Assembly: GCF_008274695.1 (NCBI RefSeq)
Contig: NZ_VTOU01000003.1
Location: 1-64,000, forward strand
Source: Sphingomonas montanisoli
Lineage (GTDB): Bacteria; Pseudomonadota; Alphaproteobacteria; Sphingomonadales; Sphingomonadaceae
Direction: 5' to 3'
Length of the DNA stretch: 64,000 nt
Under the pieces are notes generated by a model. That model searched no databases and was not told the DNA's origin. It saw nothing but the letters and a program-made list of their open reading frames with translations. Of this stretch, positions 8,848 to 30,271 are shown in pieces; positions within the stretch are counted from its first letter, which is position 1; each line of letters begins with the position of its first letter. A program made the position numbers and the translations under genes.

Positions 8848-8976
8848 ATGATTGATCAGAACGACTGGAGCGCACGCGCGCGTGCTAAGGCAATGCGCGC
8901 GGAAGCCATTGCCGCCGTGGGTGTTGGTGGGGCAGTCGTGGTCACTGTGCTGCTTTTACTAGTGGCCTACATCTAG
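8848..8976 (+). CDS. Small membrane protein on the opposite strand (moron)
   Basis: 42 residues: a charged N-terminus (MIDQNDWSARARAKA) and a strong C-terminal membrane helix (VGVGGAVVVTVLLLLVAYI). It is the only plus-strand gene between 1 and 15.6 kb and ends tail-to-tail with the next gene, both stops sharing CTAG. A possible promoter lies at 8752-8783 (TTGCCC, then CATATT). The 200 bases upstream hold no other gene. Function unknown; morons of this type often act in the lysogen. Confidence 0.6.
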   Translation: MIDQNDWSARARAKAMRAEAIAAVGVGGAVVVTVLLLLVAYI

Positions 8977-9793: not shown

Positions 9794-9823
9794 ACCGCAA
9801 CGTCGATCAGAGCAGTTGAGGTT

Positions 9824-9836
9824 GCTACCGCCGTCA
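9824..9836 (-). promoter_or_regulatory. Late-unit element, copy 5 (variant TGACGGCGGTAGC)
   Basis: One base differs from the consensus. It ends 30 bases before the connector ATG, in a leader without a Shine-Dalgarno sequence. Confidence 0.65.
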
Positions 9837-9871
9837 ACGGGGTGGCGGCGTCTACCGATTTCTAGCCTAAA

Positions 9872-10102
9872 CTAACCGGCAAAATAGGCCGTCGCCACGG
9901 CGCCGCCGGACGCAGCCGCCAACAATGCGAGCAGCAGGCCCGCCATAGGCCGCCGCCCCTCCTGCGAGCTTGGCTCGTCGATCGATCGGCGCGTCATCAA
10001 TTCATAGGCCTCATACGCGCCATCCCAGTCGTCGCGTCTGGCTTCATCAATGATCTCGCGAATTCGCGCTTCTTGTTCGACGGTAAAGACAGCGTCGTTC
10101 AC
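9872..10102 (-). CDS. Small tail-anchored membrane protein
   Basis: 76 residues from GTG 10102. Acidic helical N-terminal half (EQEARIREIIDEARRDDWD), then a C-terminal hydrophobic helix (MAGLLLALLAAASGGAVATAY). Between the tailspike gene and the connector genes. Unknown family; a single C-terminal anchor would fit a holin-like or spanin-like role, but no lysis partner is adjacent. Bases 10103-10258 hold no gene I can support. Confidence 0.55.
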   Translation of the reverse strand: MNDAVFTVEQEARIREIIDEARRDDWDGAYEAYELMTRRSIDEPSSQEGRRPMAGLLLALLAAASGGAVATAYFAG

Positions 10103-10258
10103 AAGAATTCTTTATCGTGCATGTAGAGCCTCCGGTTCATCCCCTGGCGCATTGAGCGCTCGTGAAACGTTCACTCGTCCAAGCGCCTTCATTTGGCAAG
10201 GGAAGATGACCACGCAAACGATTACAAATTAGTTATTCATTTATTGCCAATGTTTGTG

Positions 10259-12448
10259 TTACCAGCCCAATGTCGCCCGCTTCGCTGCAATCTGCTGTGC
10301 GATGAAGATACGACCAGCGTCGCTGTAGTGGGTCGTTTCGCGCTGCTCGTAGCGTTCATCCTTCGTGTGTGCCGCCGCAGTCGTCCCAAGATATCCGCGC
10401 TCACTTGTGTTGATGACGTTAGTCGTGCGCGTAAGGACGTTCACATACTCGCCGCTAGCGAACTTCATCGGCCCGCCGCCGATTTCGCTGCATGCAAAGG
10501 TCGTGGCACTGTTGTTGATGTCGCTAACCAGCGTGCCAGCGCGCGAAATCTGCCGAAAGCGCCACGGCACCACCTTATTGGCGAAGTCCTGAACCTCCAT
10601 CGGTTCGGCCGGGTCATAGGCGTCGATCATCGCTTGCCACACATTGAGGAAGCGGGCGCCATAGGTCGCGGCCAGTGCCGCGTTCAGCGCCACGATCGCG
10701 TCATAATTCGCGGTGCCGACAAACTCGGTAGCCGTGTTGATGTTCGCGACCGACAGGACCAGATACCGATCATGGGGAATCGCCGCCACCATTGCGGCAA
10801 TGTCAGCCTGTACCGTCGCGCCCTGACTGTAGTTGTTCCGCCCAGCCATGATGGCGATTTCTCGGTCGAATAGCGCGTCGTTGAGGAAGCGTGTCCGGAT
10901 GGCCGTGCTCTGGTCGTTCTCCGCTCCGCAATTCAAGACACGCTTGCCCGTTAGCGCCGCGAGATGCTGCGGGATCGATCGGCCACCGGGGAACGATGCT
11001 CGCGACACGAGACTATCGCCATAGACGGCGATATCCGGAGCCGGGCGCTTCGTGGTGAAGGGGCGCATCTGCGTATCGGCGATCTGGGCGGGGATAACAT
11101 CGATCCGCTCGATCCATCCCTGCCATGCATTGCTGAACCCAAGTCGCGCGGCCGTCGTGGTGATCTGCTGCAGCTTCGTCGATACCTTCACCGATCCGCC
11201 GTTCGCCACGACGCGCCGATCAGTGGCGCTCCACGAGACTGCCTCAAGCGTGCTGGACAGGCGGTTGCCCTCACCGAGCGAATATGTCGCCTCGTTCCCG
11301 CCCTGGTTGTTGTGCGAGAGCCCTTGCGTGAACGTCTGACCACGCTGCAGCGGGGCGCCGCTCTGGATCCGCACAAGAGCGCCGTTATTCGGCGTTCCGT
11401 AGCTATATCGCGACCGCACCACCATCGTCCCGGACGCGCCAGCGAGCGCCGCAAGAAACCCGGCGGCCGTGCTGAAATTGTCGGCGTTGCGCACGCCCGC
11501 TGAACCGGTCGAAGGGACGTAGCTTGTTGGTCCCGGAATCCCGAAGGCGGCCGCCTCAAACTGGACAGCGCGTGGGCTTCCGGCAACGGTGATGTTGACC
11601 GTGCCCGCGGTGTTGGTCCAGATCGCAACCCATTTGCCATGCAAGGCAGTCCTGCCTCCAACGGCACCCCAAGTGTTGTCGGCGGGTACGACTGCAAAGG
11701 TTGCGGTGCCTTCGCTGATGGTGGCGCTTCCGTCGAGTTCCGCGCGATCGGCGATCCATAGCGTGTACCAAGTCGCCGCAGCCACCGTTACCGCCTGCGT
11801 GACCGGCGCGCCGCTGTTTAGAAACAGGTTGGTGGCACTATGCTCCATCAGGGCGCCACGACCGGGCGAGATGGCGGGCACACCATCTTCGAATGTGCGA
11901 AATGCGTAGCCCGGCGCGTTATCGACCGTGAGGTCGGTCTTCGGGCCGGTACGCGAGAACGTGATCAGGCTCGCAAACGAGCCGCCGGCATAGCGATCGT
12001 TCGCGAAGTCCGTGACGACGCTGGCCCCGAGAAGGGGGAAGGGCGTGACGTCAGCCGAGCGGGTCGCGCCCAGATCATCCTCCACAAGAAGAGACCAGAT
12101 GAGCGCACCGCCTGAGATATCGCCCGCAAGGCGCGCGCGGCGAACCGATCGGTCGCTACCAACCGCGTTCGCGGCGATGATGTCGAGTTCGGCCTGCGTT
12201 GTCGCCTGGATGTCGATCCGAGTGTCGCGATAACCGTCACCCACACCCGGCTCATATTCCCGCAGCACGACGGTGGAAACGGGATAGGGAAGCCCGCTCG
12301 ACATCACGTTGCCGTTCACAGTCGAGAAGCCGGGGGCGCCGTCGTTCAGCACCTCCACCTTACCGGTGGTCAGGCCGTTGATCTTCGCCTGAAAGGGGCG
12401 GCCCTGAACGCCCGAGGTAACGGAGAGGGAGAGCGCGCCGAGTGCCAT
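10259..12448 (-). CDS. Tailspike or head fibre with C-terminal SGNH esterase domain
   Basis: 729 residues. An N-terminal beta domain (about 1-130), a jelly-roll/LamG-like middle (about 150-460; repeated ATNLFLNSG, NADNFSTAAG features) and an SGNH-hydrolase domain from about 470. The hydrolase shows IAVYGDS (GDS at 477-479), GRNN at 536-539 and THYSDAG at 706-712, matching blocks I, III and V. Such esterases deacetylate capsule or exopolysaccharide, fitting hosts that coat themselves with sphingan-type polymers. Unusual position: between the capsid and connector genes. It has its own upstream terminator and element copy 6, and no Shine-Dalgarno sequence at ATG 12448. Confidence 0.8.
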   Translation of the reverse strand: MALGALSLSVTSGVQGRPFQAKINGLTTGKVEVLNDGAPGFSTVNGNVMSSGLPYPVSTVVLREYEPGVGDGYRDTRIDIQATTQAELDIIAANAVGSDRSVRRARLAGDISGGALIWSLLVEDDLGATRSADVTPFPLLGASVVTDFANDRYAGGSFASLITFSRTGPKTDLTVDNAPGYAFRTFEDGVPAISPGRGALMEHSATNLFLNSGAPVTQAVTVAAATWYTLWIADRAELDGSATISEGTATFAVVPADNTWGAVGGRTALHGKWVAIWTNTAGTVNITVAGSPRAVQFEAAAFGIPGPTSYVPSTGSAGVRNADNFSTAAGFLAALAGASGTMVVRSRYSYGTPNNGALVRIQSGAPLQRGQTFTQGLSHNNQGGNEATYSLGEGNRLSSTLEAVSWSATDRRVVANGGSVKVSTKLQQITTTAARLGFSNAWQGWIERIDVIPAQIADTQMRPFTTKRPAPDIAVYGDSLVSRASFPGGRSIPQHLAALTGKRVLNCGAENDQSTAIRTRFLNDALFDREIAIMAGRNNYSQGATVQADIAAMVAAIPHDRYLVLSVANINTATEFVGTANYDAIVALNAALAATYGARFLNVWQAMIDAYDPAEPMEVQDFANKVVPWRFRQISRAGTLVSDINNSATTFACSEIGGGPMKFASGEYVNVLTRTTNVINTSERGYLGTTAAAHTKDERYEQRETTHYSDAGRIFIAQQIAAKRATLGW

Positions 12449-12480
12449 AGCGCGGAGGGTGCCGGGAACGGGCTGGGACA

Positions 12481-12493
12481 GTTACCGCCGTCA
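12481..12493 (-). promoter_or_regulatory. Late-unit element, copy 6
   Basis: Exact TGACGGCGGTAAC, 32 bases before the tailspike ATG, just downstream of a terminator that closes the capsid unit. This context argues that the element drives transcription. Confidence 0.8.
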
Positions 12494-12508
12494 GCCGAGA
12501 CGGCAACG

Positions 12509-12538
12509 AAAAGGGCCGCTACCCGAAGATAGCGGCCC
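12509..12538 (-). terminator. Rho-independent terminator after the capsid unit
   Basis: Minus strand reads GGGCCGCTA, an 8-base loop, TAGCGGCCC and then TTTT: a perfect 9-bp stem with a short U tract, 26 bases after the stop of the 12564 gene. Confidence 0.8.
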
Positions 12539-12563
12539 GAGTGTCCCAGGGAGGGGGGATAGG

Positions 12564-12980
12564 TTAGAACTTGGCGGCTTCTTCGCGCGCCAGTTCGATT
12601 GCCGACTTGATGTCGTCGTTCGTGGCGCCGTCCTCGATCGTCACGCCTTCGGCTTTGGCGATGTCGAGCAGGTCAGCCTTATTCTTGCCGGTGAGCGAAA
12701 CGGGCTCGGCCGCCTTCGATCCACCCGGCTTGCCATCGCCATCGCGATCGAGCGCGGCGAGCTTGGCCTTGAGGTCCGCGACTTCGGCCTCCAGTTCGGC
12801 GATGCGCGCCTTGTCGTCGCCATTGTCGGTAGCCTCGTCCTGCTTGCGGCCCAGATCGGGCAGCGGCTCGACGATCTTGTCCTTATCGAAGGTCTCCGAC
12901 TGGCCGGGCTCGAGCCAGACAGTGGTGCCGTCCTTTAGGCTGACACCGCGAGCGGCGGGGGCGAAATTCGTGAGCTTCAT
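12564..12980 (-). CDS. Small capsid-operon protein with coiled coil
   Basis: 138 residues from ATG 12980, with AAGGAG seven bases upstream. N-terminal beta segment (GTTVWLEPGQSETF), central heptad-like coiled coil (IAELEAEVADLKAKLAALD) and a C-terminal helical segment resembling a Rho-N/HeH-type fold (KADLLDIAKAEGVTIEDGA). Comparable small proteins follow the major capsid gene in related prophages; head accessory role inferred. Confidence 0.65.
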   Translation of the reverse strand: MKLTNFAPAARGVSLKDGTTVWLEPGQSETFDKDKIVEPLPDLGRKQDEATDNGDDKARIAELEAEVADLKAKLAALDRDGDGKPGGSKAAEPVSLTGKNKADLLDIAKAEGVTIEDGATNDDIKSAIELAREEAAKF

Positions 12981-12990
12981 CACCGTCTCC

Positions 12991-14031
12991 TTAGATGCCG
13001 TCGCGGTAGACGACCGCCTTCGGTAGGCGGATCTCGGTGCCGCCGACGTTCATCACACCGCCGACCGAGAACAGCATGTCGTGCGCGCGGCGCGGTTCGA
13101 GGAAGGTGTGGTCGCCAGGCAGATGGAAGCGAGCCACTTCCTTGCTGTTGTCCCACGCCATCATGCGGTCGGTGCTGCTGGCACCCGCGCCGGCCAGTTC
13201 GCGAATATTCGTGAACTCGATCGAGCGGCCACCTGCGGAGCGATCACCGCGGATGAAGTCGATGATGCGGCCCGAGCCGTCCGTCATGCGGGTCTGCTCG
13301 ATATAGCGCAGCTTGGCCGTCGGCAGCGCGACGGTGGTCGCGGTGTGCGTCTCCGCCGTCTGGGTCTCGACCGCGTTCACAGCGCCCCAGATGTCGGCGC
13401 TGATTTGATCCGGCGTCTTGTTCGCCCAGGGCGTGGTCGAGCCGGTGCCAGTCGCAGCCACGTTGGCCGTGGGCACGTTCGGATCGTTGATCAGGCCGGT
13501 CCAGCCCTTCTCCGACACGGCTGCGCCGGGCGTGCGGCCGGTCATCGCGACCGAGCGCTTGAACACCTTGGCCACCATCGTGGCGTCGGACGCCTTCTCG
13601 CTGTCGAGCGAACGGCCCATCTTCGCGGCGCGCTGCATCTCCTGCACGCTATACTCGTAACCGATACCGGCGAGGTGGAAGCCGCGAACGTTCTGCTCGT
13701 TCAGGCTACCCACATACGGCATGTCCATGCCCTTGCCGGACAGGAACTCGGCGCGACCGACCATATCGCGGCTGTAGAACACCGTGCCGATGTCCCACAT
13801 GTCGCCGTCTTCGTTGACCTCAATCAGGCCGGTCAGTTCGAAGTTCGGATACTTGCGCGAATAGACTTCGCTCTCGATGCGCCACAGCTGCGGCGTGAGG
13901 AAGGCGATACCGATCTGGTCGTTCGTGTAGAACTGGTCGACCTTGTCGCGGAAGCCATCGACGAACTGGTCATCGTGAGCCTTCCACGCTCGGAAGTCGA
14001 TCTTGCCGGTTGCGGCGTCAAGAAACTGCAT
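12991..14031 (-). CDS. Major capsid protein (DUF2184 type)
   Basis: 346 residues. Conserved segments such as GYEYSVQEMQRAA and the C-terminal PLPKAVVYRDGI-like end match DUF2184 capsids (HK97 fold). It follows the protease/scaffold and cement genes. ATG 14031 has AAGGGGG upstream; it belongs to the unit headed by element copy 7, with Shine-Dalgarno-driven internal genes. Confidence 0.85.
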   Translation of the reverse strand: MQFLDAATGKIDFRAWKAHDDQFVDGFRDKVDQFYTNDQIGIAFLTPQLWRIESEVYSRKYPNFELTGLIEVNEDGDMWDIGTVFYSRDMVGRAEFLSGKGMDMPYVGSLNEQNVRGFHLAGIGYEYSVQEMQRAAKMGRSLDSEKASDATMVAKVFKRSVAMTGRTPGAAVSEKGWTGLINDPNVPTANVAATGTGSTTPWANKTPDQISADIWGAVNAVETQTAETHTATTVALPTAKLRYIEQTRMTDGSGRIIDFIRGDRSAGGRSIEFTNIRELAGAGASSTDRMMAWDNSKEVARFHLPGDHTFLEPRRAHDMLFSVGGVMNVGGTEIRLPKAVVYRDGI

Positions 14032-14044
14032 GGTCGAGGCCCCC

Positions 14045-14497
14045 TTAGCGCTTGGCCAGCTTGACGAGCGCGCCGCTCGCAGCCGTGGTGTCGAAGAACC
14101 AGCCCGGCAGGATGGTGTTGCCGGACGAGGAGTTGGTGAAAGCGCCAGCGCTGGTGACGTAGGCCTGGTCGCCCGGCGCCACCGTTGCCGCCGCCAGAAC
14201 CCAGATCACGCCAAGCGTAACGATCGGGGCGGTGGCGTTCTGCGGGAACGTGTCCGCAGCGCCGCCAGCGATCGGGCTCAGCGCCTCGTGGTCGCGAACT
14301 ATGCCGAGGAGCTTGCCTGCCGTCGGGGTGGCCGTGCAGCCGTGGTCATTGGCACCGCGGAAGGCCGCCTTGCCAAATGCCACGCCCGCCGAATCCTCGA
14401 CGGTGCGCGAGATGATGTTCTTCGTCTCAGCGTTGACGACGAGACCGGGATAGCCGGGAGCCACCTGGTCGGTGTAGTTGCTCTGAAGGATAGCCAC
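14045..14497 (-). CDS. Capsid structural cement protein (Gp24/DUF2190-like)
   Basis: 150 residues from GTG 14497 with AAGGAG upstream. Gly/Ala-rich beta protein with an internal IVRDHEALSPIAGGAADTF region and GDQAYVTSAG loop, similar to structural cement proteins that decorate the capsid, found directly before the major capsid in related phages. Confidence 0.75.
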   Translation of the reverse strand: MAILQSNYTDQVAPGYPGLVVNAETKNIISRTVEDSAGVAFGKAAFRGANDHGCTATPTAGKLLGIVRDHEALSPIAGGAADTFPQNATAPIVTLGVIWVLAAATVAPGDQAYVTSAGAFTNSSSGNTILPGWFFDTTAASGALVKLAKR

Positions 14498-14509
14498 TTT
14501 CCAGTCTCC

Positions 14510-15019
14510 TTAGGCGGCGTTGCGCTGGGCGCGGAGGCGGTCGCGGAGCGCGGCGCCGTCGGCAATGTTGATGGGCTGCTGGCTGATTGCGTCGCGCAGC
14601 GTGTCGGTGGCCTCGACCTTCACGTCCTTCGTCAGGACAGCGAAGGAGGCGGCGACCTGGGCATCATTCCAGCCCTTGGCCGCGTCGCCCATCTTGGCGC
14701 TGACGGCGGCGGCCATGATCTGGCCCTCGTCCATCTCGTCAGTGACGTTGATGCCGAGCGCCTTCGCCTTGCTGGCGATCTGCGCATAGGCCTTGGCGGC
14801 GTCGCGAAGCTGGGCCGGGGTCGGGCGCGCATCCTTGAGCGCCTTGTTCTCGGTTTCGAGCGTCGCCTTATCGGTGGTCAGCGAGGCGATCTGCGTTTCG
14901 AGGCCTTCAACCTTGGCGGTTGCGGCGTCGCGGGCGGCAAGGATCGTGGTGATCGTCGCAATCGCGGTGTCGGCATTGCCGACGTCGACGGTCAGCCCGT
15001 CGATCATCATGGTCTTCAC
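14510..15019 (-). CDS. Internal in-frame scaffold product of the protease gene
   Basis: GTG at 15019 inside the protease gene has AGGAG six bases upstream (minus strand CAGGAGAAGCCCGTG). Translation from here gives 169 residues of mainly coiled coil, separating the scaffold from the protease domain. This nested arrangement parallels lambda C/Nu3. The start is predicted from sequence only. Confidence 0.55.
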   Translation of the reverse strand: MKTMMIDGLTVDVGNADTAIATITTILAARDAATAKVEGLETQIASLTTDKATLETENKALKDARPTPAQLRDAAKAYAQIASKAKALGINVTDEMDEGQIMAAAVSAKMGDAAKGWNDAQVAASFAVLTKDVKVEATDTLRDAISQQPINIADGAALRDRLRAQRNAA

Positions 15020-15619
15020 GGGCTTCTCCTGGGTGGTGAGACTGTCGAAAAGGGGCTGCGGGGCGCTGGCGCAGGGGGCCGCGTCTTTGATGGCGCACTC
15101 GGATCCGGCGCGGCCGCGATCGACGAGAGCGACGTGATTGCCGAAGATCGTCTTCTGGCGCGCCTGGCACTTGGTGCCGTCGGCGGCGGTGAAGTCGCCA
15201 AACTCGAGATCGGCCGAGTAGCCGTTGCTCAGCTCGCGCTTGCCACCGTTGACCTTGGCGATCGCCTCGGCGTCGGTGAGCAGCAGATCGAAGGCGAGAT
15301 AGTCGCCGTCGCGCATCGCGCCCATGACCGTGCCGCGCGCGTGCTGGCGCCAGTTGTCGGCGGTGACAGCCTCGCGAGGGTGATCATCGGTGACGGGCTT
15401 GCCGATGAACGAGCGCGCCGAGGCCGCATCGAACACGGTCTGATCGTCGCGCAGCACATGGACGAGCGCGGTGTCGCGCAGGCCGTGCTTGTTGTCGGGA
15501 TCTACCTCGCGGCCGGCATACTCATAGGTGCCGGTGCGCGCCGCCTTCGCCCGAACGGCGAGAAAACCGTCTTGCGTTCGGCGCGGCGCGTCCAGCACAA
15601 GGGTGTCGGCGAAATACAT
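14510..15619 (-). CDS. Capsid maturation protease with scaffold tail (DUF2213)
   Basis: About 369 residues from ATG 15619; ATG 15628 is also possible, but 15619 gives the 32-base spacing to element copy 7 seen at the other copies. N-terminal DUF2213 protease domain (GKPVTDDHPREAVTADNW, then SNGYSADLEF and GNHVALVDRGRAG), then a C-terminal coiled-coil scaffold (IASLTTDKATLETENKALKD). It should cleave scaffold and capsid during head maturation. No Shine-Dalgarno sequence at the start. Confidence 0.85.
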   Translation of the reverse strand: MYFADTLVLDAPRRTQDGFLAVRAKAARTGTYEYAGREVDPDNKHGLRDTALVHVLRDDQTVFDAASARSFIGKPVTDDHPREAVTADNWRQHARGTVMGAMRDGDYLAFDLLLTDAEAIAKVNGGKRELSNGYSADLEFGDFTAADGTKCQARQKTIFGNHVALVDRGRAGSECAIKDAAPCASAPQPLFDSLTTQEKPVKTMMIDGLTVDVGNADTAIATITTILAARDAATAKVEGLETQIASLTTDKATLETENKALKDARPTPAQLRDAAKAYAQIASKAKALGINVTDEMDEGQIMAAAVSAKMGDAAKGWNDAQVAASFAVLTKDVKVEATDTLRDAISQQPINIADGAALRDRLRAQRNAA

Positions 15620-15651
15620 GCGCGGCATCGTGCCGACGCGGGAGAGGCGGA

Positions 15652-15664
15652 GTTACCGCCGTCA
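15652..15664 (-). promoter_or_regulatory. Late-unit element, copy 7
   Basis: Exact TGACGGCGGTAAC, 32 bases before ATG 15619. It sits in the short gap between this gene and a divergent plus-strand gene that starts 10 bases away. Confidence 0.75.
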
Positions 15665-15673
15665 GGGGGGCAT

Positions 15674-16144
15674 ATGTCGGACGATCGAATGCAAGAACTT
15701 GTAGAGCGGAAGAGGGCCGCGATGCGCGCCCAGGCGGAGAGGGATCGGGAGCAAGCCGAAAGGGAATCGGCAGAAGCCGAGAATCAGAAGCGGGTAGCGG
15801 CCCTTTGGAGAGAACAAGAGCCGGCAATGATGGCGGCGCTCGATGCTGTGAATGCAGCGTTTCAGGGGTTATCCACGGCAATCCACCAATATAGCAGCAA
15901 GCCGGCGAGCTACCCTCACATTGCGTATAAGGAATTTGGCCTTACGAAGGCGCGTATTGCGGGAACTCTTCAAACGTTGAACATCAATGTGGGTCATCAT
16001 GGGCTTGTCGATGTTGCAATGGGCACATCGCATCAACGCCCCATCAAGAGCCAAAAATTTCAGCTTGAGGACGCTGACTTCGAGAAGTGGAAGAACGTTT
16101 TCCTCGACTTTATAGAGGTCAACACACCCGCTAGCCCAAGCTGA
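15674..16144 (+). CDS. Divergent cargo gene (moron) in the head module
   Basis: 156 residues from ATG 15674 with AGGGGGG upstream; a longer open frame to the left is antisense to the capsid genes and rejected. N-terminal charged coiled coil (ERKRAAMRAQAERDREQAERE), then a C-terminal alpha/beta region (AYKEFGLTKARIAGTLQTLN). The 3' half is less GC-rich than its neighbours, suggesting recent acquisition. It overlaps the minor head gene tail-to-tail by 14 bases. No family recognised; a lysogenic or regulatory role is possible. Confidence 0.65.
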   Translation: MSDDRMQELVERKRAAMRAQAERDREQAERESAEAENQKRVAALWREQEPAMMAALDAVNAAFQGLSTAIHQYSSKPASYPHIAYKEFGLTKARIAGTLQTLNINVGHHGLVDVAMGTSHQRPIKSQKFQLEDADFEKWKNVFLDFIEVNTPASPS

Positions 16145-17000
16145 GGACGGCTTGGCTGCGACATCCGCAGAACGGCAGTGTTCCCGGCAGATCATCCGGC
16201 GGCGGCAGCACCCCGTCGCCGGCCAGCGCCGCGGTGTCAGCATAGACCTTCCCGTCCCGCGCGATGTGTTCGGGGCGGCCGTGCTTCTTGTGGGACCAGC
16301 GCCACTTCCACGTTCGGATCCCTGCTTCGGCGCGGCGCTCGCGATCGAGGGATGACGTCAGCTTGACCAATTGATCAGAGGCGATCCGGAGCGACCGCTG
16401 GCGAGACAGTCCGACGGCCTCGCGCAGTTCGCGGGCGATGTCGCGGGCTGGGCGGTTATCGCGCATGCCGGCGAAGACGATGTTCGCGATGCGCTGGCGG
16501 GCCTGATCGCTGACATCGGAGATGAGCGACGTGTTCCAGGCGATGCTATCCCGCACCGACTGCGGCGTGCCCGACGCGAGCAATACTGCCTCGATGTCCA
16601 CATTTGTCGCAGACAGGACGGCGCCGCGCCACTGGCCTCTATGCCAAGATTCGACGCGAGCAGCCCACTCTCGAAGCTCCGGGAGAAGCTGCAGCACGAG
16701 GTCGGACAGTTCGCGGCCGATGGCGTCGAGGAGGTCAGACAAGCTGCTGATGCTGTCCGTGATGAGGTCCGGCGCTCCGATGGTTAGGTGCGAAGGTTGA
16801 CCGTCGCGCATAGCGATCGAGCGCTCATACTCTGCCATGATCCGGGGCAGGACGGCGGCCCATGCGTTCACGACGGGCCTGTAGCAGCGCGCGAACAACG
16901 CCTGCGCCAGCATCCCCGGCGGCGCGATCGGGCGGATGTCGATCGTCTTGCGGCGGGGGTTCTGCGATCGGCGGACTATGGTGGAGAGGTCGTAGCGCAT
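16131..17000 (-). CDS. Phage minor head protein (Mu gpF / SPP1 gp7-like)
   Basis: 289 residues. The C-terminal part has the family's pattern: LTSSLDRERRAEAGIRTWKWRWSHKK, then RPEHIARDGKVY and a Pro-rich DDLPGTLPFCGCRS. These are DNA-ejection/head morphogenesis proteins encoded after the portal. ATG 17000 overlaps the upstream stop (TGATG). Confidence 0.9.
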   Translation of the reverse strand: MRYDLSTIVRRSQNPRRKTIDIRPIAPPGMLAQALFARCYRPVVNAWAAVLPRIMAEYERSIAMRDGQPSHLTIGAPDLITDSISSLSDLLDAIGRELSDLVLQLLPELREWAARVESWHRGQWRGAVLSATNVDIEAVLLASGTPQSVRDSIAWNTSLISDVSDQARQRIANIVFAGMRDNRPARDIARELREAVGLSRQRSLRIASDQLVKLTSSLDRERRAEAGIRTWKWRWSHKKHGRPEHIARDGKVYADTAALAGDGVLPPPDDLPGTLPFCGCRSQAVLSLG

Positions 17001-17176
17001 CAGCGCGCCCGAACGATGAACCCATGCCGGGCGAGCAATCCGGTGCCTATGTCCGACACGCGATCGGCAACCTCAAATGAAATAAATGAGGCGACGACGC
17101 AGGCGAAGGTCAGCGCGAACAGCGCGGGTCGCAACCACCACCGTGGGCGGAGGGATAGCTGCACGGTGATGATCAC
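17000..17176 (-). CDS. 58-residue membrane protein between portal and minor head genes
   Basis: Starts at GTG 17176, overlapping the portal stop as GTGA, and ends in TGATG with the minor head gene, so it is tightly coupled at both sides. Basic N-terminus (LSLRPRWWLRP) and one strong membrane helix (ALFALTFACVVASFISF). Function unknown; coupling to head genes is a reason to believe it is translated. Confidence 0.65.
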   Translation of the reverse strand: MIITVQLSLRPRWWLRPALFALTFACVVASFISFEVADRVSDIGTGLLARHGFIVRAR

Positions 17177-18990
17177 AGACCGCCCTCCCGGATTTCTTCG
17201 AACACCTCAGGCCCGAGGACGATCTTGCCGCGGTATGGCTCGATCGTCGACACATCGACCGGCTCGCCGGTGAGCGAGATGTGCGGCTGATAGTCGGGGT
17301 GGTCCCATGACGCGCCGGCTTCGCGGATCGACATGTTGCGCCACGATAGATCGGTCGACGCGAACAGCAGGACGGCTGTGCGATCACCCAACGGTTCGAC
17401 GACGCGCGGGCCGCCGGGGCTAATGACGATCTTGCCGTCTTCGCCCATCCATCCGCCGCCCATTTTGATCCAGTCCACAGGGGTGCGGCTGAACGCGATG
17501 GTGACGTGCAGATCGTCCTGCAGTTCGGGAAGCCCTTGATCCTTGGCCCATGCCTTGATTTCGGCGACGTTGACGACCTTGCGGCTCACATAAAGCGTGC
17601 GAGGCAAGGCATCGTTCGCGGCCAGGCGCTGGCCAGCCTGAAGCGCGCTCGGGTCTTCCTCGTTGGCATCGTCGTCGTTGCTGGCGTTGAGGCCGAAGCG
17701 TTCGTCTTCGGGGATCTCCGCCAGCGCGCCATCGAGGCCGGGGATCCAACCCTTCTCGGAAAGCAGGTTCTGATACCCCTTGGCGAATGCCTCGTCAGGG
17801 ATCGCGCCCGATGTCCGCACCTTGTCCATCGCATCGGCGGTGGCCTTGAACGTCTCGGCCTCTTCCTTCTCGCTGGGCGTCGAGAGCGGGGCGAACTCCC
17901 ACCAAACCTCGTCATCGGGCGCGCCAAGAGCCGTGGGCACGAGCACGACGTCAAGCTGATCGATGCAGGGCCGCAGGTCCAGATCCTGCCGCGCCTTGAT
18001 CGTTTTGTGCCAGAGCTCGATGTCCGATGCGCCGGTCGAGTTCTGGCCGTCAGGCGACTTCCCGAGCATCACGGTCGCAGGCATGTCGAACGCGCCGCAC
18101 ACCATGGCGAGATAGTTGTTGTTGATGTCGGGGATGCCCGCCCAAGTCATCTGGCGATCCTCGATCGTCTCGCCACCCTTCGTGCCGTCGCCGCTGTCGT
18201 AGAATGTGACGCCGAACATGGATTCGCCCAGCGCCATCGCCTTCATGCGGCCAGCCATCATGGCTTCGCCATCTTTCGATGATGCAATTTGGGTGAAGTT
18301 GGGGATGCCCACGCGCCGGTTGCGGGCGTCCTTGATCAGTGCCGCGAAACCGTTCTGCGCCGTGTCGCTGTTCTGCACGGCGTCGAGCACGGTCTGAACC
18401 TTGCTGTCGCCCCAGAACTGCTCCTCCCATGATCCGCCGCGGATGTCCGGGATCGGGTCGCCACGGAAGGCGATGACGCGCGAGGGGTGGATGTTGACGG
18501 GCAGACGGCCGCCGGTGTTCAGCGTGTAGAAGGTCGGATAACCATACCATTCGTCCGCCGGGTCGGTGCGCATCGGCCCCAACGTCAGCCGCGACTTGTG
18601 CCACACATGAAGGCTGCGCAGCTTGCCGGGGATATCGGGGTTGATAGGAGCGTCGGGGCGATCGTTCCCGATCCACATCACCATCGCGGCGCCGCCGAGG
18701 CCGCGCAGGGTTTCCGCGCGCTTGAGCTTGTTCCACAGGTCCAGCTTGCGCTCTAGCGCCTCAAGCTTCTTGATCTGATCCGCGTCCGCCTGCCAGTTCC
18801 GGCGCTCGCGCACCATCTCGGTCGCGGGCTTGTCGATGCCTTTGCGGCACAGCCAGGACGCGCGATAGGTCGCTTCGATCTCCACGTCGGAGAGGCGGCG
18901 GAAGAGGTAGGCGTTGTAGGAACGCGGGTCGCGGCCGGTGCCAGCCCCGGTCAGCGCATTTACGATGCCGTCGGCGAACGGGGTGTTCAT
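17173..18990 (-). CDS. Portal protein fused to Acb1-like anti-CBASS phosphodiesterase
   Basis: 605 residues. Residues 1 to about 440 are a DUF1073/PF06381 portal (LCRKGIDKPATEM, WGDSKVQTVLDAVQNSD, GKSPDGQNSTGASD). A linker of Asp/Asn-rich sequence follows, then a domain with two HxT/S motifs of the 2H phosphoesterase superfamily: HVT at 495-497 and HIS at 570-572. That is the active-site pattern of Acb1, which cleaves the cyclic nucleotide signals of CBASS. The portal forms the DNA entry vertex. ATG 18990 lacks a Shine-Dalgarno sequence; the leader is very C-rich and bears element copy 8. Confidence 0.85.
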   Translation of the reverse strand: MNTPFADGIVNALTGAGTGRDPRSYNAYLFRRLSDVEIEATYRASWLCRKGIDKPATEMVRERRNWQADADQIKKLEALERKLDLWNKLKRAETLRGLGGAAMVMWIGNDRPDAPINPDIPGKLRSLHVWHKSRLTLGPMRTDPADEWYGYPTFYTLNTGGRLPVNIHPSRVIAFRGDPIPDIRGGSWEEQFWGDSKVQTVLDAVQNSDTAQNGFAALIKDARNRRVGIPNFTQIASSKDGEAMMAGRMKAMALGESMFGVTFYDSGDGTKGGETIEDRQMTWAGIPDINNNYLAMVCGAFDMPATVMLGKSPDGQNSTGASDIELWHKTIKARQDLDLRPCIDQLDVVLVPTALGAPDDEVWWEFAPLSTPSEKEEAETFKATADAMDKVRTSGAIPDEAFAKGYQNLLSEKGWIPGLDGALAEIPEDERFGLNASNDDDANEEDPSALQAGQRLAANDALPRTLYVSRKVVNVAEIKAWAKDQGLPELQDDLHVTIAFSRTPVDWIKMGGGWMGEDGKIVISPGGPRVVEPLGDRTAVLLFASTDLSWRNMSIREAGASWDHPDYQPHISLTGEPVDVSTIEPYRGKIVLGPEVFEEIREGGL

Positions 18991-19022
18991 GCGCGAGAGG
19001 GTGGGCGAGGGGGATGGCGGGA

Positions 19023-19035
19023 GTTACCGCCGTCA
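19023..19035 (-). promoter_or_regulatory. Late-unit element, copy 8
   Basis: Exact TGACGGCGGTAAC, 32 bases before the portal ATG and 10 bases after the end of the SIR2 gene. Confidence 0.8.
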
Positions 19036-19045
19036 GGGGGATGTG

Positions 19046-20044
19046 TCAGCTAGTCAGTACCGCGAAGTTCTGGCGCATAAACTCGGCGCACTTGACGTTG
19101 TAAGTTTTGGGCCGGTCCGGATCGCCGTATTTGAGAAAGCTCGACATTGATTGTCGGATTAGGTGAGTTTCAGGGGCAGGCACATCATAGATTGTGCCCA
19201 GGACTTCACGCGCGTTCGCAATTTCACCTTGCCGGAGCATCTCAATATTAGGACGGTGAAAGCCGAAGCCGAGAAATGCGATCCTATTCGCCCAAGCCAC
19301 ATACTCTTCGACAGACCTAGTAATTTTGGGATCCCTCGTCGACTCGCTAAAGGTTTGGATATTTTCCCAACTCGATGTCATGAAGTTAGGCGTAGGTATG
19401 CCGAAGTCGACGCCGTTGCTCGCAGGGGTTTGCCACGGCAGCATGCCGAGGGTTCCGTAGGGATGCACGATAACCTGCCGCGCCACGATCTTTCGGGCTT
19501 CATCGCCGGGGATTCCATATGCAAGGGACAGAGCGGTTGGAAGGAAGTGCTCTAAACAGCGGTCATAGTTGAACGATATAAAACGGACATTCTCGAAAAT
19601 GTCCTCGACGCGGCTTCTCGAAACGTTCTCAGTCAACTGCTGAGCGAGGCCATGTAGCCACGTCCCTGCACAGGCGTCGGTAGTCGACATGAGGGGGGAA
19701 TCTGCCTCAGCGGCTATGATGGCCTGAACAATCCCAATTTTGCCTACGATTTCGGCATCCGCCGATTCCTGCTGCTCTATAACGTTGTCTATCGAGCGGC
19801 CGATGCTCGCGGCTTGAGCTATTCTCCTCCCACCGCTGACAAGCGCTTCAAGCCGCTCTTTATCGCCATCCGCCAACGTCCTCAAAGTGCGCTCGACTAC
19901 GATATTTCCTTGATCTAAACCCTGGCGCTTCCAATGCAGGTTCACGTTCTTGGCAATGCGCTGAAGAAGGGTGGGGCCGCTCGGAAAGTTGAACTCGCAG
20001 CTCGCCCCCGCGCCGATGACGAATAGAGTGCGCGTTCTGAACAT
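19046..20044 (-). CDS. SIR2-family protein (probable NADase defence gene)
   Basis: 332 residues from ATG 20044, with GAGAGGG upstream; ATG 20077 is less likely. SIR2-like NAD-binding motifs: GAGAS at 11-15, SFNYD at 157-161, HPYG at 194-197 and LGFGFHRPN at 258-266. Stand-alone SIR2 proteins of this type deplete NAD+ in several anti-phage systems. It sits alone between terminase and portal, on the same strand, in less GC-rich sequence than the flanks, so it looks like inserted cargo that protects the lysogen. A deacetylase role is less likely. Bases 20045-20110 are a short gap. Confidence 0.8.
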   Translation of the reverse strand: MFRTRTLFVIGAGASCEFNFPSGPTLLQRIAKNVNLHWKRQGLDQGNIVVERTLRTLADGDKERLEALVSGGRRIAQAASIGRSIDNVIEQQESADAEIVGKIGIVQAIIAAEADSPLMSTTDACAGTWLHGLAQQLTENVSRSRVEDIFENVRFISFNYDRCLEHFLPTALSLAYGIPGDEARKIVARQVIVHPYGTLGMLPWQTPASNGVDFGIPTPNFMTSSWENIQTFSESTRDPKITRSVEEYVAWANRIAFLGFGFHRPNIEMLRQGEIANAREVLGTIYDVPAPETHLIRQSMSSFLKYGDPDRPKTYNVKCAEFMRQNFAVLTS

Positions 20045-20110
20045 TTGAGTACCCTCTCCCCAGCCACTCGCGTGCACTATTTTGCAATCTGCCGCCAGTG
20101 GCGCTTGGCT

Positions 20111-21334
20111 CTAAGATAGCCACGCCGACGCATTGTAGGCGGTCTGCTTGATCAGCGGCGACACCGCATACCGAACCGCATCGATATAGTGGTTGTTCGC
20201 ATCGACAAGCACTGGCAGCACATCTCCGGTCAACCGATCTACCTTGTAGCTGTAGAGGCGCGCCTCGCTGATCGTTGCCTTGCATCGCGGGTGGATGACG
20301 ATCTCGCGGAACGAGCGGAGAAAGCGGATGCCGTCGTCGACGCTCCCCTGCCACTTCGGCGCGGGCTCGGCGCGGCGTAGTCCTGATCTGGTGAGGATGC
20401 TGATCGAGCCAGGCGACGCGCTATCCCAGCGGCTCACATAGTCGGCATAGCCGGGGATGGCGTCTGACACCTTGGCGCCGATCGCGTCGAGCTCGATCCC
20501 GCGCCCACCGGCCTCGTGGCTGATGTAGAGCGTGTCGCCGTGGATATAACAACGCACGGCCGCGGTCGGATCCTGGGCATAGCCGAAGTCGCCGCCCTGA
20601 TACGGGCCGTCCCAGCTATCCTTGGGCTCGAACTCCTGCACCCGCCATTTGCCGGCCAACACCTGCGCATCCGAGTTGACGAGATAGCCGCCTTCCCAAA
20701 CGTGATGATAGGTCGCTGGGTCAAGGCGCTCCTGCTCGCGTCGCCGAAGCTTATCGAGGCCGGCGGGGAAGAACGGGTTATCGAAATGGTTCACCTCTGC
20801 CGTGATCGCGTTGTCGGGCGGATGCTTCCGGAACCGCATATCGACTGGGCTTCCCTCAAGCCGGGGGTTCCAGAGCGCCCATAGCTCGGATTTGGGCTGG
20901 CGGAAGACGGTGGCCTCGAGTGCCAGCCACGACGTTTCCGGCACGTCTTCGGCCTCCTCCACGATCGTCAGGTCGATCTTGGCGAGCGACTTCACCGACT
21001 GCACGTTGCGGCGCAGGCCGCGGAAGAGGAAGTGGGTGCCGTTCGCGCCGCGCAGATAGTCGACGCCGACATCATAGTGAGCTTCCAGCCAAGGCTCAGA
21101 CGCGATGGCCGCCTTCAATTCGGCGTGGAACGATTCCGAGATGCTAACCTGAAACTCGCGAGTGCAGAGGATACGCAGCGGCTCGGCATATCCCCAGATC
21201 GCCGCCATCTTCGCCGCATTGAACGACTTGCCCGATCCACGCCCGCCGTGGAGGTTTCTATATTGGAACGTGCCGCGTTCGGGCGCGAAAACGGGAACTA
21301 GCTTAGGCGGTAGTTCGATCGTGGCTTCCGTCAT
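20111..21334 (-). CDS. Terminase large subunit
   Basis: 407 residues. Walker A GGRGSGKS at 30-37, Walker B TIVEEAED at 123-130, then a nuclease half (GGDFGYAQDPTA with the first acidic site, and later DSASP and DANNHYIDAVRYA). Terminase_3 (PBSX) family motor and nuclease that packages DNA. Overlaps the small subunit stop (ATGA). Confidence 0.95.
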   Translation of the reverse strand: MTEATIELPPKLVPVFAPERGTFQYRNLHGGRGSGKSFNAAKMAAIWGYAEPLRILCTREFQVSISESFHAELKAAIASEPWLEAHYDVGVDYLRGANGTHFLFRGLRRNVQSVKSLAKIDLTIVEEAEDVPETSWLALEATVFRQPKSELWALWNPRLEGSPVDMRFRKHPPDNAITAEVNHFDNPFFPAGLDKLRRREQERLDPATYHHVWEGGYLVNSDAQVLAGKWRVQEFEPKDSWDGPYQGGDFGYAQDPTAAVRCYIHGDTLYISHEAGGRGIELDAIGAKVSDAIPGYADYVSRWDSASPGSISILTRSGLRRAEPAPKWQGSVDDGIRFLRSFREIVIHPRCKATISEARLYSYKVDRLTGDVLPVLVDANNHYIDAVRYAVSPLIKQTAYNASAWLS

Positions 21335-22005
21335 CCGGCCGCCTTGATGATGATGGTCTTGGGCGCGAGCGAGCCGTCAGGGTTGGAGTGCTCCACCTTG
21401 TCGACGAACATGCCCAGATGGCGCGCGACGTTTTCCAACGCCTTGCCTTGGTCCTGCATCTTGATCTCGAAGCCGTCGCGGGTCTGCTTCACGCCAGCAT
21501 AGAGGAGGCGAGCGCCGCCCTTGAGTTTGCGGGTGTCGAGGCCGTGGATATGCGCCTGCCCCTCGCCGAAGCACTTGGGGCAATCGGCGTGCGGATCGGC
21601 GCGGCGATCGTAGCCATAGCCGCCATCATCGGTCGGAAGTTCGGACGCCTCGCCAGCGGCAACCGCAGACAACGCCGTCGCGAACTCCTCGGGGTCGATC
21701 CATTGATAGGCGTGGTCGACACCATGGCAATGACGGCAGCAGGTGCGCCGAAACTGGATCAGGTCGTTCGGATCTGCGGTGGCGATGTCCCACCATCGGC
21801 GGAGAACCATCTCCTGCGTGATCTCGGCCTTCTCGGACAGGCGGGCGCGACCTTCAGTGATGGCGTCGGCGACACAAGTTTTCCCAAGTAGCTCGGGCCC
21901 AATGCGATCAGCCGTGCGCGCGCTATACCCTGCCCGGATCGCGGCCTGCGTCGCGTTCAGGTCGATCAGATATTCTTCGACAAAGCGCTGCTGCTTCGGG
22001 GTCAT
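21331..22005 (-). CDS. Terminase small subunit
   Basis: 224 residues. N-terminal LTP-type start MTPKQQRFVEEYL with NATQAAIRAGYS, the Terminase_2 DNA-binding signature. Central insertion with two Cys pairs (CCRHCHG and CPKCFGEG) that could bind zinc. It recognises the packaging site and feeds the large subunit. ATG 22005 overlaps the upstream gene. Confidence 0.92.
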   Translation of the reverse strand: MTPKQQRFVEEYLIDLNATQAAIRAGYSARTADRIGPELLGKTCVADAITEGRARLSEKAEITQEMVLRRWWDIATADPNDLIQFRRTCCRHCHGVDHAYQWIDPEEFATALSAVAAGEASELPTDDGGYGYDRRADPHADCPKCFGEGQAHIHGLDTRKLKGGARLLYAGVKQTRDGFEIKMQDQGKALENVARHLGMFVDKVEHSNPDGSLAPKTIIIKAAG

Positions 22006-24835: not shown

Positions 24836-25176
24836 GCCGGCTCCACCTCGACGAGCACCGCCCCACCGGGCACGACATCACCGACAGTGAAGGACGTGCG
24901 GAAGCGGCCGTCGTTGATGCCCAGCGCCAGAGCGAGCCCATCGCGCCCATGCTTGAACGAGGCGAGCATGTTGTCGTCATCCCGCGCGCGCCGGTCGGGC
25001 GGGCAGAAGGTGAGGATCAGCCGCAGCGGTCCATCCGGCACCGAACCCTTGCGGCTCAGCGACAGACCCCAGCAAAGCTCGCGGTAGGACTTCTTCGCCG
25101 ACATCTTGGCGCGGAGGGGCGCCGTGCTGTTCGGGTTGAGCTCCTTGGGGGGCCAGGGGAGAGAGAGGGGCGTCAT
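24832..25176 (-). CDS. RusA-like Holliday junction resolvase
   Basis: 114 residues from ATG 25176 (ATGA overlap). PWPPKELNPN at the N-terminus and DRRARDDDNMLASFKHGRDGLA with a DxDN core are the RusA signature: Asp residues bind metal and cut four-way junctions. In phages it resolves recombination intermediates before packaging. Confidence 0.9.
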   Translation of the reverse strand: MTPLSLPWPPKELNPNSTAPLRAKMSAKKSYRELCWGLSLSRKGSVPDGPLRLILTFCPPDRRARDDDNMLASFKHGRDGLALALGINDGRFRTSFTVGDVVPGGAVLVEVEPA

Positions 25177-27056
25177 GCGGCCTCGACCTCGAAGTCGGCG
25201 GCGATCACATCGGGGAACTGCGCGCGTGTCAGCGCCTCCGACAGCGGCGGGCATACGCTGTTTCCGCATTTCGCGACCTGCGCCGTCTTGGTGATCGGGT
25301 GGCCTTGGGCGTCATGATCGATGACGTAATCCGTCGGGAAGCCCTGCGCGTTGAACAACTCACGCGGCGTCAGCATCCGCATGCCGATATCGACGATCAC
25401 ATAGTCTTCGCCCCCGATCGTCACGATGACGAGGCCGAAGCGATCCTGAACCGTCACCGTGCCCAACGGACTGTCGAGGCCGTGCCCGTCCTGCTCGTTG
25501 CCATAATATTTGATCAGGAAGGCCCGAACCTCGGCCATGTGCGTGCCGCCTGCGCTGACTGTGTGCAGCGGTTCGTCGGTGGGCTGTCCATGCGCGCAAG
25601 TGCCGCGCAATTTGATGAGGTTCGATGTTACGATCCGCTGCTGCGATCCTGTCGTTGCGATCGTCGAAAGCGGCTCATCGGCCGCCCGGCCAGCGAGATT
25701 GGCATTGTTCGGCCCGCCATTCGCCTGCTCGATATGGGCAGCGACTAACGCACGGATCTTTGCATGATCCTCTGCCGAGGCCCGCTCATGGACGTCATGG
25801 CCTAATTCACCTGAGGCATACTTCTGCATGAAGGCCATGACAGCATGATGCTTGATGCCGCCTGCGACGACGGTGCCGAGCGGCGCTTCCACGTCCATCG
25901 CGCGCGGCGCCTGCCCTTCGCGCTCGCCATTGCCGATATGCACCAGGTGCGCGCCGACGATCGTGTTGTGATCGCCGTCCGACGCAGTGACGGTGTGCAA
26001 CGGATCGTCAATCGACCGATTGCCACCGCCCTGCTGGGCATAGCTCGCAAAGGGCGCGATGGCCGCTTCGACGACGCCGAGCGGAGCCGCACCGCCGGGC
26101 CGCTTAATGAAGCTGTTGGCGGTGACAGTGGCGAGCGGATCCTCGACACTGTCGCCGATCGCACCATTCCGGAACTTAGTGATGTGCGGGACCACGACGG
26201 CATGTTCGCCGCGATTGGCACCTGTCACGGTCGCCATTGGCTGGTCGATCGACGCGCCGCGAGCGCCCTCCTGATGGTGGGTCAGCGGCACGATGAATGG
26301 CTTCGGATTGTTGACGACGAACTTCATGATGCCGTGCGCGATCCGCCGAAGCGTCTTGTCCGCGAGGGGCTTCTTCCGCTCGAAGATTGATTGGCAGGGG
26401 ATCGACCAGTCGATGATCTCCGCCGCGGTCCGCCACGGCAGGCGCTGGCCGCTCATAACTTCGGGCGAGCCCGGCCTTCCATGCGTAGGCGCTGGCCAAG
26501 CGATCGGCTTCCCGTCCCGGCGCGCGACCATGAAGAAGCGCTTGCGGATCGTCGGCGCGCCGTAATCGCAAGCCCGAAGCTCGCGGAATTCGATCTTATA
26601 TCCCTGTTTCCGGAGCGCGGCGCACCACTTCGCGAACGTCTCGCCCGCGCGCTCCTTGATCGGCCGGCCCTCATCGTCGAGCGGCCCCCACGTTCGGAAC
26701 TCCTCCACATTTTCGAGCAGGATCACGTCGGGGCGGACCTTCTCGGCCCACAGCACGACCACCCACGCCAGATCGCGGATCGACTTCTCGCGGGGCTTGC
26801 CGCCCTTCGCTTTCGAGAAATGCTTGCAATCCGGGCTGAACCACGCGAGCTGAACCGGCCGGCCCCGCACGACATCGCGCGGATCGATCTGCCAGATGTT
26901 GTTGCGAATGTGCATGGTGCCGGGGTGGTTCACCTCGTGCATGCGGATCGCTTCTTCATCGTGGTTGATGGCAATATCGACGGCACGGCCAAGCGCGGCC
27001 TCAATGCCGGTCGAAGCGCCGCCGCCGCCTGCGAAGTTATCGACGATAAGACCCAT
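25173..27056 (-). CDS. DNA cytosine-5 methyltransferase with repeat-rich insert
   Basis: 627 residues from ATG 27056. Class I methyltransferase: SAM motif DNFAGGGGAS (6-15), catalytic Cys in SPDCKHFS (C77), ENVEEF (115-120), RKRFFMVARR (171-180), RMLTPRELFNAQGFP (560-574) and KCGNSV (596-601). Between the halves (about 270-535) seven 'D-x-P-L-x-T-V' repeats occur (at 271, 306, 350, 390, 460, 494, 528) where the target recognition region is expected. It modifies phage or host DNA, probably to evade restriction. ATGA-coupled to both neighbours. Confidence 0.9.
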   Translation of the reverse strand: MGLIVDNFAGGGGASTGIEAALGRAVDIAINHDEEAIRMHEVNHPGTMHIRNNIWQIDPRDVVRGRPVQLAWFSPDCKHFSKAKGGKPREKSIRDLAWVVVLWAEKVRPDVILLENVEEFRTWGPLDDEGRPIKERAGETFAKWCAALRKQGYKIEFRELRACDYGAPTIRKRFFMVARRDGKPIAWPAPTHGRPGSPEVMSGQRLPWRTAAEIIDWSIPCQSIFERKKPLADKTLRRIAHGIMKFVVNNPKPFIVPLTHHQEGARGASIDQPMATVTGANRGEHAVVVPHITKFRNGAIGDSVEDPLATVTANSFIKRPGGAAPLGVVEAAIAPFASYAQQGGGNRSIDDPLHTVTASDGDHNTIVGAHLVHIGNGEREGQAPRAMDVEAPLGTVVAGGIKHHAVMAFMQKYASGELGHDVHERASAEDHAKIRALVAAHIEQANGGPNNANLAGRAADEPLSTIATTGSQQRIVTSNLIKLRGTCAHGQPTDEPLHTVSAGGTHMAEVRAFLIKYYGNEQDGHGLDSPLGTVTVQDRFGLVIVTIGGEDYVIVDIGMRMLTPRELFNAQGFPTDYVIDHDAQGHPITKTAQVAKCGNSVCPPLSEALTRAQFPDVIAADFEVEAA

Positions 27057-27253
27057 CACAGCGTGGCTTTCTTCTTGGTGCCGAGCACCCCAGGACGGGT
27101 CGCGTTGACGTGGGCGCGAATGTGGTCGACCTTCTCCATGACTGCGGAGCGGGTGATGACCTCGCGGTGGCGGGAGAGCGTAAGCGCGGCCTCGCGGACG
27201 AGATCAGCGGGCGCGGCTTGCGGCTCAGCGCGGCGGAACGGCCACAAGTTCAT
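27056..27253 (-). CDS. Small unknown phage protein
   Basis: 65 residues, basic (ENDING PGVLGTKKKATL), helical; adjoins the methyltransferase with an ATGA overlap. No family recognised. Confidence 0.6.
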   Translation of the reverse strand: MNLWPFRRAEPQAAPADLVREAALTLSRHREVITRSAVMEKVDHIRAHVNATRPGVLGTKKKATL

Positions 27254-30259: not shown

Positions 30260-30268
30260 GTTGGAAAC
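30260..30268 (+). promoter_or_regulatory. Second, half-site repressor operator
   Basis: GTTGGAAAC repeats one half of the palindrome next to the main operator. It lies at the start of the repressor gene's leader and may tune autoregulation. Confidence 0.5.
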
Positions 30269-30271
30269 TTC

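Follow-up and report, generated by a model that had tools for sequence, protein, structure and literature searches.

A SIR2-fold gene with an apparent variant active-site motif between the terminase and portal genes of a Sphingomonas prophage: a candidate anti-phage effector

Bacterial immunity makes wide use of SIR2 NADases as effectors. PMC10973363 describes DSR2 as acting in defence by the opening of a lid and the depletion of NAD. PaAvs5 is reported to carry NG in place of HG and still to hydrolyse NAD on infection and to defend, with N110, D112 and E202 likewise required for immunity (PMC12931631). PMC12700824 presents the vertebrate proteins FAM118A and FAM118B as noncanonical sirtuins that process NAD, carry the SIR2_2 annotation and resemble the antiphage sirtuins of bacteria. 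P2 and P4 prophages are described as having defence hotspots in which small variable cargo (old, tin, PARIS and others) lies between conserved phage genes (PMC9122126, PMC9519451), and Tha prophages as avoiding self-triggering on induction by means of an inhibitor (PMC11087260).

We analysed a SIR2-like gene in a 64,000-nt stretch of the Sphingomonas montanisoli contig NZ_VTOU01000003.1, here called the window. The original prediction had placed a stand-alone SIR2-like protein between terminase and portal genes, in sequence less GC-rich than its flanks, and each of these points held. The ORF is real and its frame is intact over its whole length; Pfam confirmed the TerS, TerL and portal neighbours (Table 1), and the SIR2 fold spans residues 1-332. 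An alternative GTG start at 20077, 33 bases upstream, would add 11 aa; the ATG was favoured because relatives begin at the ATG position. The ORF is not a chance one, since relatives were found in 11 other genomes and a SIR2 fold was predicted. The GC content of the gene was 0.543, compared to 0.626 for TerL, 0.643 for the portal gene and 0.639 for the window, and the bin from 19001 to 20000 (0.547) was the lowest among the 64 one-kb bins of the window.

Table 1. Features of the window and locations of SIR2 genes of the same family in this phage and other viral loci.
Feature	Position or locus	Strand	Basis or remark
SIR2-like gene	19046..20044	minus	332 aa from ATG; ORF, Pfam, PADLOC, six-frame search, AlphaFold2 fold
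GAGAS motif, residues 11-15, NAD loop	20000..20014	minus	sequence, alignment
Candidate lid, mostly helical, about residues 42-148	19601..19921	minus	alignment, model
FNYD motif, residues 158-161, TxNxD equivalent	19562..19573	minus	sequence, alignment
HPYG motif, residues 194-197, Tyr196 aligned with KomC His146	19454..19465	minus	HMMER; hhalign gives another register
TerS (terminase small subunit)	21331..22005	minus	PF03592, PHROG
TerL (terminase large subunit)	20111..21334	minus	PF04466/PF17288, PHROG
TerL-SIR2 spacer, 66 nt	20045..20110	minus	Shine-Dalgarno-like GGGGAGAGGG; without late element
SIR2-portal spacer, 55 nt	18991..19045	minus	sequence
Portal protein with C-terminal Acb1 domain	17173..18990	minus	PF06381 + PF23474, PHROG
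Late-promoter-like element GACGGCGGTAA before portal, intact despite insertion	19024..19034	minus	motif scan
Copies of GACGGCGGTAA	2152, 5436, 7518, 8635, 9825, 12482, 15653, 19024	minus	motif scan
Repressor-like ORF	30242-31036		name read from sequence
Integrase-like ORF	42624-43610		beside tRNA-Thr; name read from sequence
tRNA-Thr	43670-43744		adjoins integrase-like ORF
SIR2 at TerL-portal	this phage, L176		
SIR2 at major head protein-head-tail adaptor	L177, L185-L189	antisense	
SIR2 before TerS	L201	antisense	
SIR2 after portal	L207		
SIR2 at minor head-protease	L179		
SIR2 at neck-protease	L206		
SIR2 between DNA polymerase and primase-helicase	L180	antisense	
SIR2 by endolysin genes	L197, L199		

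By PHROG, the region contained terminase, portal, head maturation protease and major head genes, and its assignment to a prophage was borne out by the integrase-like ORF beside tRNA-Thr and the repressor-like ORF. The contig starts at base 1 of the window, so the left prophage end lies outside the window, and no exact 18-base repeat linked 43401-44000 to any other part of the window. A 43.6-kb IMG/VR contig encoded a SIR2 protein, TerL and portal identical to those of the window and was therefore taken as the same phage; a portal scan of viral contigs returned this phage only. The anti-CBASS domain claimed for the portal was recovered as Acb1 (PF23474) at its C-terminus (residues 464-601, E 2.6e-32). 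Among the 21 TerL relatives with a portal match, tblastn detected Acb1 in 10, this phage included. The domain also occurred in relatives without a SIR2 match in the fetched locus; nothing was found that links SIR2 and Acb1 functionally. Two HxT/HxS-like motifs (HVT and HIS) were seen in the portal Acb1 sequence. Elsewhere in the window, a large minus-strand ORF at 25173-27059 resembles a cytosine-C5 methyltransferase when read by eye and contains several PLxTVTA-type internal repeats.

Pfam PF13289 (SIR2_2) scored 15.3 bits (E 0.022) against the window protein, under the curated cut-off of 24.5 bits, and reached E 1e-3 in 16 of 58 relatives, while NCBIfam returned nothing relevant for the family. 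The best PADLOC matches of the window protein were Aga_SIR2 (E 1.3e-4) and SIR2 (E 3.8e-4), with values down to 2.1e-12 and 6e-9, respectively, among relatives; at E <= 1e-3, Aga_SIR2 matched 41/58 members and one SIR2 model 32/58. An AlphaFold2 model built from an alignment of 58 family sequences (A2) had a pLDDT of 94.6 and a pTM of 0.92, and an earlier model from alignment A1 had 84.5 and 0.87. The A2 model matched SIR2 enzymes over its full length, as the original prediction had anticipated. At E <= 1e-3, the PDB matches given by Foldseek fell from 23 for the A1 model to 2 for the A2 model, the better of which was SIR2-HerA (E 3.5e-4); query TM-scores were about 0.3-0.5. The predicted fold, together with the GAGxS and NxD motifs, places the protein in the SIR2 fold superfamily.

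The A2 model was further compared by VIA-align with SPARSA 8y80 (Z 13.7, 233 aligned, 3.8 A), BcThsA 8bto (Z 13.4, 223 aligned, 3.3 A), SIR2-HerA 8wld (Z 13.4, 240 aligned, 4.2 A), human Sirt5 (Z 13.1, 210 aligned, 3.6 A), DSR2 (Z 12.6) and KomC/KomBC entries (Z 12.0-12.8). These scores tie, so the fold cannot separate defence NADases from deacylases. The tie of sirtuin deacylases with defence SIR2s would suit an enzyme that phages acquired and that acts in lysogenic conversion, not defence: either a SIR2-type transferase of ADP-ribosyl or acyl groups, or a housekeeping NAD enzyme. We consider this unlikely. When the profile was compared with PDB sequences, KomC came first (2.2e-5) and an Avs5 chain second (1.6e-4), the other matches listed being above 0.1, and among the 15 matches listed no sirtuin structure appeared apart from KomBC chains. 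The window protein also has four cysteines with no CxxC pair and therefore no zinc ribbon, which likewise argues against a transferase or housekeeping enzyme.

The GAGAS, FNYD and HPYG motifs named beforehand were all present; HPYG differs from the canonical motif of SIR2 and looks like a variant of HG. Across 117 aligned members, conservation covered GAGxS, SID (84-86), K102, E113, W129, FNYDR, G197, G259 and N266, the invariance of FNYDR being biased because FNYDR..E was the search pattern used to collect loci. The kept residues SID 84-86, K102, E113 and W129 fall in the helical stretch between GAGAS and FNYD, a candidate lid by analogy with the systems described in PMC10474274 and PMC10973363.

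The HMMER alignment to KomC set Tyr196 of HPYG on His146, and the ungapped comparison of the distant member L211 (HLHGSLG) with the window protein (HPYGTLG) agreed with Tyr196 at the His position. The hhalign comparison of A2 with A3 (15 PADLOC-type SIR2s) set HG against L199-G200, contradicting the KomC register. The catalytic-His position of canonical SIR2 NADases appears, from the KomC register, to be Tyr196 in the window protein. Position 196 was Tyr in 106, Phe in 2 and His in 8 of the 116 members holding the motif, the eight being seven Novosphingobium copies (HPHG) and L211. His194, two residues before Tyr196, was retained in 107/116; Arg replaced it in 8/116, seven of these with His one residue earlier (HRPYG), and a His stood somewhere at residues 193-196 in 114/116, the exceptions being L171 and L125. 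Read by eye, the SIR2_2 (PF13289) matches in the class comprised 23 HG, 2 HxYG and 3 other motifs (n = 28 readable of 30 fetched, with L226 and L242 left out), and both HxYG matches were also found by the A2 profile. All 15 PADLOC SIR2 model matches read in the class had KxHG, in a set that overlaps the PF13289 set. One chromosomal relative (L283:9065-10117, the same as L008) had decayed motifs (GPGAA, FNRD, HPLG) in an open frame and is possibly a pseudo-enzyme.

In sirtuins, H-to-Y is an inactivating change, and SIRT1 H363Y is a dead mutant. The title of PDB entry 2h4h likewise names a Sir2 H116Y mutant structure. With Tyr at the likely His position in most members and the NAD-loop motifs still conserved, the protein could be a SIR2-fold binder of NAD or ADP-ribose derivatives without hydrolysis, that is, a sensor, sponge or dominant-negative partner. 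We doubt this, and we think it equally doubtful that such a binder could, for example, damp host SIR2, Thoeris or CBASS signalling to the benefit of the prophage, for which the anti-CBASS Acb1 on the portal of the same phage would speak. The histidine two residues earlier and the near-constant His at 193-196 weigh against a non-hydrolysing binder, ligand binding is itself only a candidate property, and the non-His HG variant of Avs5 is reported to be active (PMC12931631). Because that NG variant works, NADase activity is possible, and an enzyme with Tyr at the site and a His close by may likewise be active.

We extend this tentatively to the HxYG clade as a whole, which would be a distinct group of stand-alone SIR2 proteins borne by phages and chromosomes. 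Its members would perhaps be immune effectors that cleave NAD with a rewired active site, the HG His being naturally Tyr with a His at -2, and would be carried as single-gene cargo where transcription units meet inside the structural modules of prophages. If the clade is active, SIR2 chemistry would have a second natural solution after the Avs5 NG variant, and the apparent Tyr-for-His exchange is a natural test of the need for the HG histidine. The clade is under-annotated because the Pfam and NCBIfam profile libraries barely catch it. No title on a YG-type SIR2 was found in the literature search, and absence from print is not claimed.

The SIR2 insertion was sought in related phages through TerL. 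Eighty TerL relatives were kept, and 21 of them had a downstream match to the portal of the window, including L015, which is the same phage; the other 59, among them L032, which ends at TerL, stand outside the insert count. In 19 of the 20 other relatives with a portal match, the TerL-portal gap was estimated at about 14-195 nt, and no evident foreign gene was found in the printed spacers or among the ORFs of five wider ones. The 20th, L021, had about 0.9 kb in this gap with a different, reverse-strand gene. The SIR2 insert was absent from 19/20 comparable relatives, and L021 carried another gene at the spot. Both inserts follow the terL stop and precede a short conserved element that lies ahead of the portal gene, and they were the only two seen at this spot. 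The L021 gene (2372-2965, minus), named by eye as outer-membrane beta-barrel-like, is possible surface-modifying or exclusion cargo. In G406, a member of the TerL family, a non-homologous gene begins 1 nt after TerL, without an insert.

The TerL of the window was 85-91% identical to those of L016, L017, L018 and L020, while the portals were 40-43% identical (91% and 43%, respectively, for L016). High TerL identity beside low portal identity indicates a mosaic breakpoint at the TerL-portal spot. Such a breakpoint would be expected for a neutral passenger at a recombination junction with no present function, but the intact 332-aa frame, the conserved family motifs and the good predicted fold make a passenger very improbable. 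By its absence from most comparable relatives and its GC difference, the SIR2 gene looks like accessory prophage cargo, or a moron.

The minus strand carried eight copies of the 11-base element GACGGCGGTAA between 2152 and 19034, six exact and two with one mismatch. The window total of nine matches (one outside 2152-19034) compared to 1.29 expected, and 0/100 shuffles reached nine. Copies lay 24-33 nt before the starts of 6/19 tested late-region genes, and those at 2152 and 7518 were not paired with any tested gene start. The six element-led genes had weak Shine-Dalgarno sites (dG +1.9 to -3.6). Among the 13 tested genes lacking the element, nine had strong sites (-6.1 or lower); the contrast is a tendency because the other four were also weak. 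The SIR2 gene was among the nine, its Shine-Dalgarno-like site having a dG of -8.3, and no late element was found within 70 nt of its start (best, 5 mismatches). Of the 21 relatives, 11 had GCGGTAA or ACGGTAA in the TerL-portal spacer, 4 had CGTCCGTA and 6 had neither; 8 of 9 relatives examined had at least one further copy of their own element downstream on the same strand.

GACGGCGGTAA is probably a phage-specific late promoter with short leaders, and the SIR2 gene, lying upstream of the portal's copy, is read as standing outside the late-element regulon. The promoter scan found no sigma-70-like promoter for SIR2; since the gene shares its strand with the late genes, terL transcription may read through into it. 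Its strand and its place 66 nt 3' of terL could also mean that it is a lytic-cycle gene co-transcribed with terS-terL, acting in packaging or late on a co-infecting phage. We judge this improbable, because some homologues in other prophages are antisense to late genes and because the absence of the insert from most comparable relatives means that SIR2 is not needed for packaging.

The six-frame search found the SIR2-like protein in 12/385 Alphaproteobacteria genomes, its own included (E <= 1e-3), with a best match of E 1.3e-49 among the 11 others. The A2 profile raised this to 17/385 genomes of the class, its own included, several matches being weak or partial. From the collections, 208 cellular loci were obtained, of which the best 80 were taken, and this phage is among the 39 viral loci; the nearest relatives were Sphingomonadaceae, and 14 Rhizobium/Agrobacterium plasmid records matched. 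No match was found by tblastn in the phage collection of 50,697 records at E 0.01 or in BFVD at E 1e-3. Viral and cellular labels were interleaved, with at least 18 changes on a FastTree tree of 117 rows, the sole tree method, in which long branches were flagged and some "cellular" copies may lie in unrecognised prophages.

Eleven of the 39 viral loci, this phage included, had SIR2 in a module for head, packaging or connector functions; the junctions differed, and some copies were antisense (Table 1). L186-L189 were placed by sequence cluster, and some contigs are near-identical. Some PHROG hits in the viral contigs presumably mark Mu-like and T7-like phages. In L179, a P-loop ATPase-like gene (6125-7630, minus; phrog_8614, unknown function) between head genes beside SIR2 is a possible second cargo; it was read as KAP-like, on a contig with what we take to be Mu-like head genes. 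No conserved partner gene was found across 119 family loci. The largest non-SIR2 neighbour clusters, in 11 and 10 of these loci, were by eye phage head/packaging or common housekeeping-type genes, the cluster of 11 being a phage portal family.

Among chromosomal copies, eight loci adjoined a Lon-like gene and G325 and G244 were near an aroB-like gene (names read from sequence); a pgi-like gene was also among the neighbours. No clear excess of defence genes was found near chromosomal copies (PADLOC at 1e-8, 44 loci): model-name matches numbered at most 16 within 3.5 kb versus at least 11 beyond 5.5 kb, where several models can match one protein. This count covered 128/270 genes within 3.5 kb and 130/284 beyond 5.5 kb (150-1200 aa) and left out 11 Lon-adjacent loci and loci with less than 8 kb on either side. 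Repeated positions without clear defence-gene enrichment would again favour a transferase or housekeeping enzyme, against which the patchy distribution (17/385) speaks.

The reading we prefer, at a probability of roughly 45%, is that the gene is a moron of a temperate phage, probably of a Sphingomonadaceae host, with its own ribosome site and expressed in the lysogen, that encodes a one-protein, SIR2-fold, NAD-cleaving anti-phage effector. The insertion separates the TerS-TerL genes from the portal-led late unit, and the gene's own ribosome site and position outside the late-element regulon would allow expression in the lysogen. The GAGAS/FNYD pocket would bind NAD, and the helical lid may hold this pocket closed, as is described for DSR2 and SIR2-APAZ/Ago (PMC10973363, PMC10474274). 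A cue from an incoming phage would open the lid, and NAD(+) would be cleaved at the Tyr/His variant of HG, so that the cell would stop supporting the rival phage and the infection would be aborted. An anti-phage function, which the original prediction also proposed, is plausible. Against this reading stand the apparent Tyr at the catalytic-His position, the fall to two Foldseek matches with the better model, the housekeeping-type neighbours and the lack of a clear defence-gene excess at chromosomal copies, the possible read-through from terL with no sigma-70-like promoter found, the weak sites of four genes without the element, and the decayed motifs of L008. The location is relevant to how a lysogen can house a potentially lethal NADase next to late genes of its own, and a lysogen with such a gene must escape self-triggering on induction.

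Stand-alone SIR2 and Aga_SIR2 (SPARSA) of PADLOC resemble the window family in SIR2 fold, GAGxS, NxD and length; PADLOC SIR2 has KxHG, whereas the window family has HxYG and no Ago or APAZ was seen. The APAZ domain and short Argonaute partner of SPARSA were both absent, the 332 aa being all SIR2 fold and the neighbours TerL and portal. KomC, the Kongming SIR2 NADase and best PDB profile match, is similar in fold and as an approximately one-domain effector. Its HG carries His146, the residue changed in the H146N mutant that the 9xvc title names, in contrast to the Tyr at the HMMER-aligned position of the window protein. Kongming (KomABC) involves a KomB partner and dITP activation; no conserved neighbour gene was found for the window family. 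Avs5 (SIR2-STAND) shares a natural replacement of the catalytic His in HG, as described in PMC12931631; it has Asn at the site, whereas the window family has Tyr with His at -2 and no STAND or sensor domain.

DSR2, ThsA and SIR2-HerA share the SIR2 core with the window protein. The large C-terminal sensor of DSR1/DSR2 is absent from its 332 aa, as is the C-terminal SLOG domain of Thoeris ThsA, the window protein ending with the SIR2 fold. SIR2-HerA has a HerA partner, whereas the immediate neighbours here are TerL and portal, with no HerA-like conserved neighbour. FAM118A/B, likened to the window family by their description, are reported to retain His (H206) and to form filaments of two paralogues (PMC12700824). 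The P2 hotspot is described as adjoining the portal gene, as here (PMC9122126, PMC9519451); the P2/P4 hotspots belong to another phage type, and the junction here is TerL-portal. A prophage-borne SIR2 protein is thus ordinary in kind, and it is the HxYG site and the position that are unusual.
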